Assembly: GCF_037055355.1 (NCBI RefSeq) | Contig: NZ_CP146350.1 | Coordinates: 6,657,001-6,721,000 of the forward strand | Source of the DNA: Streptomyces sp. DG1A-41 | GTDB taxonomy: Bacteria > Actinomycetota > Actinomycetes > Streptomycetales > Streptomycetaceae | Length of the DNA stretch: 64,000 nt | Direction of reading: 5' to 3' | Shown here: one piece after another, positions 3 through 64,000 of the stretch | How the letters are laid out: every line of letters starts with the position of its first letter | Position numbering within the stretch: position 1 is the stretch's first letter | Translations under genes and position numbers: made by a program | The notes under the pieces: model-generated | The model's database searches: none | Told to the model about the DNA's origin: nothing | Seen by the model: only the letters and a program-made list of their open reading frames with translations

Positions 3-1172
3 GCGCTGTACGACGCCTCCGGCGCCGTCGTCGCCACGGCACCGGAGTGGGCCGGGCGGCGGGCCGCGCGGCTCACCGGCGACATACAGCGGCTGCGGGA
101 ACGGCCCGCGCCCGCCTCGTCGGTGGTCGGCGGACCGGAGCACGAGGACCGGGTCGAACTGCACACCATCGGCACGGGCCGGCGCCCCCGCGCGGCCCTC
201 GCCGTGGGCACGGCCGCCGCCCTCGGCACCGCCGAGCGCTACGCCGTCCACTCGGCCATCGCACTGCTGACCCTGACCACGGAGCGCTCCCGGTCCCTCC
301 AGGCCGCCGAGCAGCGGATCGGCGCGGCGGTGCTGCGCATGCTGCTGGCCGGGGAGCCGGACCACGCGCGAGCGGTCGCCGGGGACCTCTACGGCGGGCT
401 GCTGGACGCGCCGTTCCGGATGCTGGTCGCGGAGCGGGTGCCGGTGTCGGCCTCGGCCGCGCTGGCCCGTGCCGAGGCCGGGGCGGGCGCCCCGGCCGTC
501 GAGCGGCCGTCGGCCGCCGCGCTCGCCGCGGCCGACACCAACGGCGACCCCCTCGCGGCGCTCGCCGACGTCATGGAGTCCGCCGCGGCCCGGGCCGGCG
601 AGGCCGTCCTCGTCGTGCCGGAGGGGGAACGGCTGGTGGTGCTGGCCGCGGACGGCGGCGCCGCCGCCGCGGCCTGCGGGGAGTACGCGGCCGCCCTGGA
701 GACGGCCCGGGCCGGCGTAGGCGAGAAGGTGGCGGGCGGCGAGGAGGACGAGCTGGTCGTGGGGCTGTCGGCGCCGGCCGGGCCCATCGCCGCCTCCGCC
801 GCGTACAAGCAGGCCGAGCAGGCGCTGTCGGTGGCGCGGCGGCGCGGGCGCGTCCTCGTGGAGCACGAGCAGATGGCGGCCGGATCCGTGCTGCCGCTGC
901 TGGCGGACGACGCGGTACGGGCCTTCGCCGACGGGATGCTGCGGCCGCTGTACGAGCACGACGCCACGGGCCGCGGCGACCTCGTGGCCTCCCTGCGCGC
1001 CTGGCTGTCCCGGCACGGCCAGTGGGACGCGGCGGCGGCCGATCTCGGCGTCCACCGCCACACCCTCCGCTACCGCATGCGGCGGGTCGAGGAGATCCTC
1101 GGCCGCTCCCTGGACGACGCCGACGCCCGTATGGAGCTCTGGCTGGCCCTCAAGGCGACCAGCTCCGAGTAG
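3..1172 (+). CDS. PucR/CdaR-family transcriptional regulator, 5' truncated by window edge
   Basis: The reading frame is open from base 3, so the start lies upstream of the window; 389 codons are visible. The C-terminus has the PucR-type helix-turn-helix: a stretch reading AAADLGVHRHTLRYRMRRVEEI, followed by a short tail, is the hallmark of this family. The middle part looks like the GGDEF-like/linker region that usually precedes it. PucR-type proteins typically activate catabolic genes for purines, amino acids or amines when their ligand is present. The gene ends 122 bp before an aldehyde dehydrogenase on the same strand, so that gene is a plausible target, but no operator was identified. The family assignment is firm; ligand and targets are unknown. 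Confidence 0.85.
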   Translation, partial: ALYDASGAVVATAPEWAGRRAARLTGDIQRLRERPAPASSVVGGPEHEDRVELHTIGTGRRPRAALAVGTAAALGTAERYAVHSAIALLTLTTERSRSLQAAEQRIGAAVLRMLLAGEPDHARAVAGDLYGGLLDAPFRMLVAERVPVSASAALARAEAGAGAPAVERPSAAALAAADTNGDPLAALADVMESAAARAGEAVLVVPEGERLVVLAADGGAAAAACGEYAAALETARAGVGEKVAGGEEDELVVGLSAPAGPIAASAAYKQAEQALSVARRRGRVLVEHEQMAAGSVLPLLADDAVRAFADGMLRPLYEHDATGRGDLVASLRAWLSRHGQWDAAAADLGVHRHTLRYRMRRVEEILGRSLDDADARMELWLALKATSSE

Positions 1173-1294
1173 CCAGACCGTAGTGTCCCCGCCTCCTATT
1201 GCTACGCCCCGGACAAACGCCGTTCGGTCACCCCGCGCCTACCGTTGATCCCGAAGCACAGGACCACCCCCAACGCCGAAGGGCCGGAACCCAC

Positions 1295-2739
1295 ATGACC
1301 TCCACCCACGCCTTCTGGCTCGCCGGCCGTCAGGCCACCGGCGAGGACACCTTCGACGTCACCTCCCCGTGGGACGGGCGGCTCGTCGGCAAGGTGAGCG
1401 TGCCGACGGACGCGCAGGTCGAGGAGGCCGTGGCCGCCGCGTACACCGTGCGGGACGAGTTCGCCGCCACCCCCGCCCATGTCCGCGCCGCCGCCCTCGA
1501 CCACGTCAGCAAGCGCCTCGCCGAGCGCACCGAGGAGATCGCGCGGCTGATCTCCGCCGAGAACGGCAAGCCGCTCAAGTGGGCGCGCGGCGAGGTCGGC
1601 CGGGCCGTGTCCGTCTTCCGCTTCGCGGCCGAGGAGGCCCGGCGGTTCAACGGCGGCGAGGCCCAGCGCCTCGACACCGACCTCGGCGGCCAGGGCCGGC
1701 TCGCCCTCACCCGCCGCTTCCCGAAGGGCGTCGTACTGGGCATCGCACCCTTCAACTTCCCGCTCAACCTCTGCGCCCACAAGGTCGCCCCGGCCATCGC
1801 CGCCGGTGCCCCGATCATCCTCAAGCCGGCCCGGCCACCCCGCTGTCCGGCCTGATCATCGGCGACCTGCTGGCCGAGACCGACCTGCCCGCGGGCTCCT
1901 GGAGCATCCTGCCGGTCGCCAACGACAAGATGCCCGCCCTCGTGCAGGACGAGCGCCTGCCCGTGATCTCCTTCACCGGCTCCGAGAAGGTCGGCTACGC
2001 GATCATGGACTCGGTGCCGCGCAAGCACTGCACCCTGGAGCTGGGCGGCAACGGCGCGGCCGTCGTCCTCGCCGACTGGACGAGCGACGAGGACCTGGAC
2101 CGGGCGGCGAACCGCATCGCCACCTTCTCCAACTACCAGGGCGGGCAGTCCTGCATCTCCGTCCAGCGGGTCATCGCGGACGCCTCCGTGTACGACCGGC
2201 TGCTGCCGCGCATCGTCGCCGCCGTCGAGGCCCAGGTCACCGGCGACCCGAGCGACGACGCGACCGACGTCGGGCCGCTGGTCAGCGAGGACGCCGCCAA
2301 GCGCGTCGAGACCTGGGTGCGGGAAGCGGTCGACGCCGGTGCCCGGCTGCTCACCGGCGGCAAGCGCGACGGCGCCTCGTACGCGCCGACCGTGCTGGCC
2401 GACGTTCCGGCCGGTGTCACCCTCTCCTGCGAGGAGGTCTTCGGGCCGGTCCTCACCGTGCAGAAGGTGAGCGGCGAGGCCGAGGCCTTCGCCGCCGTCA
2501 ACGACTCCAAGTACGGCCTCCAGGCGGGCGTCTTCACCCACGACCTCCAGACCGCCTTCCGGGCCCACCGCGCCCTGGAGGTCGGCGGCGTGGTCGTCGG
2601 CGACGTGCCGTCCTACCGCGCCGACCAGATGCCGTACGGCGGCGTCAAGCAGTCCGGCGTGGGCCGTGAGGGCGTGCGGTTCGCGATGGAGGACTACACG
2701 TACGAGCGCGTGATGGTGCTGACCGGAATCAACCTCTAG
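1295..2739 (+). pseudogene. NAD(P)-dependent aldehyde dehydrogenase, split by a one-base deletion
   Basis: Two frames together give one aldehyde dehydrogenase of about 480 residues. The first part (ATG 1295, GAAGGG upstream) covers the nucleotide-binding half up to ILKPA and then runs into a TGA at 1853-1855. The second part continues in the next frame from TPLSG, with the catalytic Glu in LELGGN and the catalytic Cys in GGQSC, and ends normally at 2739. The break is at a CCC run at 1830-1832; one extra C (CCCC) would restore the family-typical KPAPATPLSG. Everything else looks intact and under normal codon use, so this is either a very recent frameshift or a sequencing error in a C run. The family oxidises aldehydes to acids; the substrate cannot be told. 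It may be controlled by the PucR-type gene just upstream. Confidence 0.8.
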
Positions 2740-63029: not shown

Positions 63030-64000
63030 GTGACCGACACCCCCGCCGACGACCTCAAGCCCAGCTACCGCAGCGATGTGACCGTCGAGCTGGTCAAGCA
63101 CACCGCGTCCGACGCGGACGTCCTTTTCTCCGCCCGCGTCTCGACCCTCGGCGAGCAGTCCCTGGACGAGCTGAACAAGGACCCCGAGCGCTCCAAGGGC
63201 CTGATCAACTACCTGATGCGGGACCGGCACGGCAGCCCCTTCGAGCACAACTCGATGACCTTCTTCATCAGCGCCCCGATCTTCGTCTTCCGCGAGTTCA
63301 TGCGGCACCGCGTGGGCTGGTGCATCGCGGGTGACACGGAGATCACGCTGGTGAGCGAGGCCGGTCACCTCCGCCGACGCACCATCGCCGAGCTGTACAG
63401 GCTCTGGCACCTGGGCGTCGAGGACCGTCTGCCGCACTCGGCCGGTGGTGTCACCTGGCACAGCCGGGCGGGCAAGTGGATGGCCCAGGTCCGACGCGGC
63501 GACACCAACCACTACCTCGGCCTGTACGAGAGTCGCGAGGCGGCCGAGTCCGCCGTCGCCGAGTTCCGCGAGCAGCATCCCAGCACCCGGATCCGCAAGC
63601 TCGAATCGGTGCGCCGCAACCACGTGCGCTGCTACGACGAAGAAAGCCTGCTTGCCCAGCGGGCCAGGATCGTCGACGTGATCGAGTCGGGTGTGAAGCC
63701 GCTCATCAAGATCACCACGGCCTCGGGTAAAACCCTCCGCTGCACGGTCGACCACGCAGTGTTCACTCCCGAAGGCTGGTGCAAGGCGGGTGAACTCACC
63801 GTCGGGGACGCCGTGCTGGTGGCCGGCACGGTCCCGCGCCCGTCGCAGGCCCTGGTCCCGCCGAGCCTGCGCCGTGGCATCGGCGTGTGGACGGCCATGC
63901 AGCGCGAGAAGCTGATTAAGGAGATCGACGCCTGCCACCTGTGCGGACAGGACTTCCCGCGGGACCGACTCGCCCTGGACCACAGGGTCCCGGTGGCGAG
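63030..64000 (+). CDS. thyX: Flavin-dependent thymidylate synthase interrupted by an intein (partial)
   Basis: The frame is open from GTG 63030 (GGAAGG upstream) to the window end. The first 97 residues are ThyX: VELVKHTASDADVLFSARVST, the HGSPFEHNSMTFFI block and FREFMRHRVGW, the first part of the RHRxxS signature. The protein then changes abruptly to an intein at Cys codon 63321, so the signature Ser and the rest of ThyX must lie downstream of the intein, outside the window. ThyX methylates dUMP using methylenetetrahydrofolate and FAD. Function depends on protein splicing. Confidence 0.9.
   Translation, partial: MTDTPADDLKPSYRSDVTVELVKHTASDADVLFSARVSTLGEQSLDELNKDPERSKGLINYLMRDRHGSPFEHNSMTFFISAPIFVFREFMRHRVGWCIAGDTEITLVSEAGHLRRRTIAELYRLWHLGVEDRLPHSAGGVTWHSRAGKWMAQVRRGDTNHYLGLYESREAAESAVAEFREQHPSTRIRKLESVRRNHVRCYDEESLLAQRARIVDVIESGVKPLIKITTASGKTLRCTVDHAVFTPEGWCKAGELTVGDAVLVAGTVPRPSQALVPPSLRRGIGVWTAMQREKLIKEIDACHLCGQDFPRDRLALDHRVPVA
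63321..64000 (+). mobile_element. Intein in thyX with AP2-like and HNH endonuclease parts (partial)
   Basis: Intein block A is CIAGDTEITL, starting with Cys1, at 63321. Block B is TVDHAVFTPEGW (about 63741-63779). Between A and B lies an AP2/ERF-like DNA-binding insert (WHSRAGKWMAQVRRG...YLGLYES, about 63450-63566). After block B the first HNH parts appear: CHLCGQ and LALDHRVPVA (63930-64000). Codon use is less G/C-biased than in thyX (AAA, ATT, GAA, CTT, ACT), fitting transfer. At least 226 residues are visible; blocks F and G lie outside. Confidence 0.85.

Follow-up and report, generated by a model that had tools for sequence, protein, structure and literature searches.

The window analysed here is a stretch of 64,000 nucleotides from Streptomyces sp. 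DG1A-41 (GCF_037055355.1; NZ_CP146350.1, positions 6,657,001-6,721,000 of the forward strand; G000:C1:6657001-6721000), whose genome is a single contig of 8.99 Mb. At the 3′ end of the window lies thyX, interrupted by an intein (Table 1). The open reading frame begins at 63030 and continues beyond the window edge, free of stops, to 64679 in window numbering (L003 5030-6679), encoding 549 amino acids (aa). One half of ThyX is recognised before the insert and the other after it (Pfam Thy1, E 1.2e-42; TIGR02170, 194.9 bits versus a cut-off of 87.9). The intein N- and C-terminal models TIGR01445 and TIGR01443 both score above their cut-offs, and Pfam Intein_splicing reaches 57.3 bits versus 35.8.

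Class 1 inteins carry Cys or Ser at position 1, TxxH in block B, a terminal Asn (usually as His-Asn) and Cys, Ser or Thr at +1. All of these residues are found here, as C1, T142-V-D-H145, H302-N303 and a +1 Ser, together with the Hint fold of the class. The junctions read RHRVGW/CIAGD... and ...GIVVHN/SYNEESGRY, which places the conserved Ser of the ThyX signature, a residue with a catalytic role, at +1. A sequence-only reading of the window had proposed an intein at the ThyX catalytic motif with this Ser at +1. Its start, 63321, was exact, and the extended gene indeed reads RHRVGW/SYNEESGRY around the insert; its end, 64000, was a mere window edge, the true end being 64229. Past 64000, blocks F and G and the remainder of ThyX follow with no stop, and the signs of a broken insertion that it had named are absent. 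The same reading wrote the motif as RHRxxS, which gave the site correctly and the spacing wrongly: three residues (V, G, W) separate RHR from Ser here, versus two in the solved ThyX chain 3n0b, as aligned with the prophage ThyX sequence described below.

The element combines complete splicing residues, a precise insertion, a conserved nuclease and AP2-like module, and a patchy distribution. It is very probably a class 1 mobile intein of the Streptomyces ThyX 'TdS-a group 2' type that splits thyX between W97 and the Ser of RHRxGWSxNE, with splicing deduced from its residues. In the 549-aa precursor (computed at ~61 kDa uncut), an acyl shift at Cys1, transfer to the +1 Ser and cyclisation of Asn303 would yield the intein and a normal 246-aa ThyX, an expected joined product of ~28 kDa with the junction RHRVGWSYNEESGRY.

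Table 1. Parts of the interrupted thyX gene, in window numbering unless another locus is named; conservation refers to 25 aligned relatives, 21 of them non-mini
Feature	Coordinates	Strand	Basis
thyX N-extein, aa 1-97, ends RHRVGW	63030..63320	+	PF02511 half matches; translation
thyX C-extein, SYNEESGRY to stop	64230-64679 (L003 6230-6679), beyond window	+	
Whole intein, 303 aa	63321-64229 (63321..64000 within window; L003 5321-6229; G000:C1:6720321-6721229)	+	Profile models; filled/empty comparison with G124
Splicing block A with Cys1 (CIAGDTEITL...), limits approximate	63321..63359	+	C1 invariant in 25/25
AP2-like module, intein aa 37-86, between blocks A and B	63429..63578	+	PHROG, WRI1 profile match, predicted structure
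Splicing block B with TVDH (T142, H145), limits approximate	63726..63767	+	H145 invariant in 25/25
HNH nuclease, two CxxC pairs, intein aa 205-251	63933..64073 (window edge at 64000)	+	PF01844
Blocks F and G, ending HN	~64161-64229, beyond window	+	

Known relatives and age of the insertion

We found 50 intein loci, of which 41 belong to group 2, including 4 mini-inteins; group names were mapped from the description in PMC5050341. A quick maximum-likelihood tree of 51 inteins places the present intein in Streptomyces group 2, with the split from group 1 plus Colt and Gizmo starred at a support of 99. In the same tree StAugustine lies on a long branch on the group-2 side, and group 2 without StAugustine has a support of 93, below the star. 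In Kelley et al. 2016 (PMC5050341), Streptomyces ThyX inteins form two groups, of which TdS-a group 2 is described as widespread in Streptomyces, and horizontal transfer between mycobacteriophages and Streptomyces is inferred; because they were published there, the type of this intein was already known. Host protein, genus and the two clades with incongruent exteins, also recovered here, are shared with TdS-a group 2 of that paper, and we take the insertion point to be its 'a'. The term AP2, however, is absent from the main text of the paper, and the evidence for recent gain, the prophage ThyX and the mini and orphan forms are new here.

Group 1 Streptomyces and mycobacteriophage ThyX inteins (Gizmo, Colt, StAugustine) are also HNH inteins placed directly before SYNEESGRY, but they are 247-257 aa in length and lack the AP2-like module. 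In Mycobacterium phage StAugustine (L154 1752-3221) the N-junction is a variant one, with the intein following RHRIA. Seven loci on viral contigs matched with best-segment identities of 30-57%, two of which were read (L058, a ThyX, and L061); the ThyX intein of L058 (2601-4400) enters two residues deeper in the motif, after RHRAGWSY, which is a different insertion point. The plasmid collection held no match. A weak match in genome G135 (L113) is a separate intein, in what is presumably a DnaB-like helicase. The Ter ThyX intein is likewise a ThyX intein, from another organism, the cyanobacterium Trichodesmium. Its engineered mini-intein splices at ~100% in E. coli (PMC3620165).

The sequence-only reading had recommended alignment with intein-free streptomycete ThyX. 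The relative G124, whose thyX is empty, matches the DNA before the intein at 96.3% identity and the DNA after it at 97.2%; the edges are fixed within one base, and the pair differs by a precise insertion of 909 bp. Among the fetched loci, the 13 ThyX coding sequences nearest to this one (91.8-97.7% identity) are all empty. The closest intein, that of S. hyaluromycini (L008; 88.9% identical in DNA and 92% in protein), sits in an extein only 87.4% identical. Because the nearest fetched genes are empty and the difference from G124 is precise, the intein looks recently gained in this thyX. The intein and extein trees are discordant in keeping with this, with modest support. Old vertical inheritance, with loss from the sampled close relatives, could draw on the wide occurrence of group 2 inteins (37 full-length among the 50 loci) and on intein and extein trees that are only partly resolved. 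We consider it improbable, as many precise losses would be required, the 13 closest fetched exteins being empty and the intein occurring in ThyX of only 17 of the 392 Streptomyces genomes surveyed by profile matches to PF02511 (ThyX) and PF00303 (ThyA).

Splicing and thymidylate synthesis

The sequence-only reading had suggested that thymidylate synthesis may depend on splicing and that the genome be checked for thyA. No match to the ThyA family (PF00303) was found in the genome. A second ThyX of 235 aa, uninterrupted, is encoded at G000:C1:5027211-5027918 (RHRAGWSYNEESGRY), within a prophage at about 4996000-5033600 (L159, L160, L004) that also has terminase, portal, capsid, tail, DNA polymerase, ribonucleotide reductase, deoxycytidylate (dCMP) deaminase and integrase genes. 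The strain may have a spare ThyX in this prophage. The suggestion therefore stands as to the absence of thyA; dependence on splicing in this strain is unsupported as stated, because the prophage ThyX is uninterrupted.

ThyX matches occur in 368 of the 392 genomes. The 17 inteins, this strain's included, were assigned by reading the ThyX matches and comprise 13 full group 2 (among them the present one), 1 group-2 mini, 2 full group 1 and 1 group-1 mini. Four of these genomes have another candidate enzyme, namely a further ThyX in the present genome and G316 and a PF00303 match in G193 and G225 (weak in G225). The other 13 show no other ThyX or ThyA-family profile match, and for that reason the dependence argument, sound in general, holds better for the relatives. 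G316 (L125, L131) carries a group 1 intein-bearing ThyX and two other full ThyX matches, one of which, in L125, has an empty RHRAGW-SYNE site. Among the 20 listed of the 24 ThyX-less genomes, 19 match PF00303 with E values no higher than 1.1e-59, and the remaining genome is 79% complete. Mutual exclusion of ThyX and ThyA was considered and dropped: of the 34 genomes that match PF00303 with E below 1e-100, 13 match PF02511 too (very weakly in G213).

The second intact ThyX would also allow the insert to be broken and non-splicing, with the strain living on the prophage enzyme. This is very unlikely given that all splicing residues and a frame open over 549 codons are retained, that the splicing regions are under purifying selection among relatives, that 13 of the 17 intein-bearing genomes have no other detected enzyme, and that the insertion looks recent.

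The HNH nuclease and the AP2-like module

The nuclease, which lies between splicing blocks B and F, matches PF01844 (E 3.3e-7; 30.8 bits versus a cut-off of 21.4) and has the HNH motif with its catalytic His/Asn/His. Residues C205, C208, D220, H221, N237, C242 and C245 are present in 35/35 cases, and H246 in 33/35. Purifying selection acts on both the HNH and the AP2 regions among relatives. Between splicing blocks A and B, the AP2-like stretch is matched by PHROG families named HNH endonuclease (phrog_99, E 5.1e-8), and a profile of 21 loci matches the solved plant AP2 protein WRI1 (E 2.3e-5). In the 92%-identical homologue L008, three strands followed by a helix, the arrangement of AP2, are predicted at aa 40-85. 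An AP2 match at E 0.01 or better was obtained for 15 of the 25 aligned inteins, and 2 of 120 proteins listed carry the Pfam AP2 label in database entries. Neither structure comparison had an AP2 fold among the 50 matches listed, which carries no weight against AP2 because matches to a single domain may take up every place. From sequence we infer DNA cleavage by the HNH nuclease and DNA binding by the AP2-like module. The nuclease would cut empty thyX alleles at the same motif, with repair then copying the intein in. It would be aided in this by the AP2-like module, which projects from the splicing domain at a point of its own. The filled/empty pair with G124 bears on such cleavage only indirectly.

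It could be argued that the module has no role on DNA and sits in the splicing domain as a neutral insert, as group 1 and mycobacteriophage ThyX inteins keep HNH without it, and P0112 keeps HNH with part of it gone. We regard this as unlikely: the AP2 region has the lowest median ratio of nonsynonymous to synonymous substitution (dN/dS, 0.067) among the regions tested, and AP2 and HNH are both absent from all 4 group-2 minis among the 41 group-2 loci. Of 153 proteins tested with AP2 and HNH expressions, we set aside 33 that lack intact junctions; P0141 matched neither expression. Among the other 119, with intact junctions and a matching HNH expression, 18 did not match a strict AP2 expression, and 17 of these keep an insert of roughly 50 residues, some of them atypical; the other is P0112.

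Several observations weigh against a recently arrived, mobile intein with a DNA-recognition module. The Pfam AP2 profile scores 20.1 bits, below its curated cut-off of 33.3, which is why we call the module AP2-like. P0112 lacks 29 residues of AP2 and has kept HNH, which shows that loss of one does not strictly go with loss of the other. The last HNH His is replaced by Gln in 3 of the 37 full-length loci, and because of this the nuclease of these three may be dead. The prophage thyX target has 7 mismatches in 40 bp to its chromosomal counterpart, a number inside the range of 3-9 between filled sites, and it is still empty; the nuclease here may accordingly be inactive, specific or recently arrived. 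Finally, loss in relatives rather than gain here may have occurred, as the empty loci compared, mostly the 30 best PF02511 matches, are a non-random sample. The empty prophage target was also considered as proof of an inactive nuclease, a use that was dropped as its 7/40 mismatches lie inside the range of filled sites.

No report of AP2 within inteins was found in the open-licence literature searched. The nearest describes an intein-like insertion in a phage methylase with an HNH enzyme in another frame, with BLAST hits that include AP2-domain proteins (PMC11855218). The free-standing homing endonuclease IPA-HNH (PMC10448857) also combines AP2 with HNH; there the gene is contiguous, with HNH N-terminal and AP2 C-terminal, whereas here AP2 comes first and the two lie at separate places of the intein.

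Wrecked and free-standing derivatives

In Streptomyces sp. TRM68367 (L051 2868-3400) an intein-bearing thyX is broken by several deletions and frameshifts, for which an assembly fault is possible; this genome has no PF02511 match and has ThyA (E 2.8e-125). In G084, taken as S. humi in view of the identical protein P0121, a splicing-dead 352-aa open reading frame from the intein sits at the syntenic place of thyX, an orphan beside ThyX (L108 1462-2520, minus strand, and 574-1374, plus strand). Its Cys1, TxxH and His-Asn are changed and the eight HNH residues are kept. The adjoining, convergent ThyX is a different one, with RHRAGVAVSQESLRF and without the target motif. A phage origin of this replacement ThyX was considered and dropped: seven large Streptomyces phages (184-200 kb) match it at 72-73% identity, but the 120 listed of 7459 matches reach 75-91%, and many of these are ThyX from actinobacterial chromosomes.

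Two further strains (P0122, P0123) encode the same derivative at 74-76% identity. Between orphans, identity is 80-86% across the AP2, linker and HNH columns and 68-77% across the splicing columns. Among 140 functional inteins, which give 6647 non-independent pairs, the number of pairs that equal or exceed this gap is 69, 0 and 0 for the three orphan pairs. The pattern suggests that the nuclease stayed under selection and splicing did not, although in the weakest pair, G084-P0122, the gap is only 3 points. A predicted model of P0122 retains AP2-like and HNH elements (mean predicted local distance difference test score, pLDDT, 72.4). Further sampling of the genus, largely the same draw as before, gave no additional orphans. 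A metagenomic protein of 308 aa (P0136), changed at the H145, H302 and N303 positions with HNH residues kept, is probably a separate splicing-dead derivative.

Free-standing bacterial intein derivatives were not reported in the open-licence literature searched. The yeast WHO/HO elements are intein-zinc finger proteins related to LAGLIDADG enzymes, for which cleavage of FBA1 was demonstrated (PMC7282813). Like the orphans they are intein-related, stand alone, do not splice and lie beside the host gene; unlike them they have zinc fingers and demonstrated cleavage, the bacterial orphans being AP2-HNH proteins known from sequence. ThyX inteins might seed a bacterial counterpart of WHO, a speculative idea that we hold to be unlikely: after a swap of the intein-bearing thyX for a target-less ThyX, as the neighborhood known for S. 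humi alone would illustrate, an orphan AP2-HNH protein could cut native thyX in other strains and help the pair of nuclease and resistant ThyX to spread.

The locus provides a clean, near-identical pair of filled and empty chromosomal sites in a metabolic gene of key importance that harbors an HNH intein, and a testable example of a DNA-recognition module set into the splicing domain at a second place. The family offers a graded series of intein persistence and end: full, mini, a wrecked gene in a genome with thyA, and a free-standing derivative. If true, the origin of yeast HO by its proposed route would have a parallel among bacteria in the free-standing derivatives.
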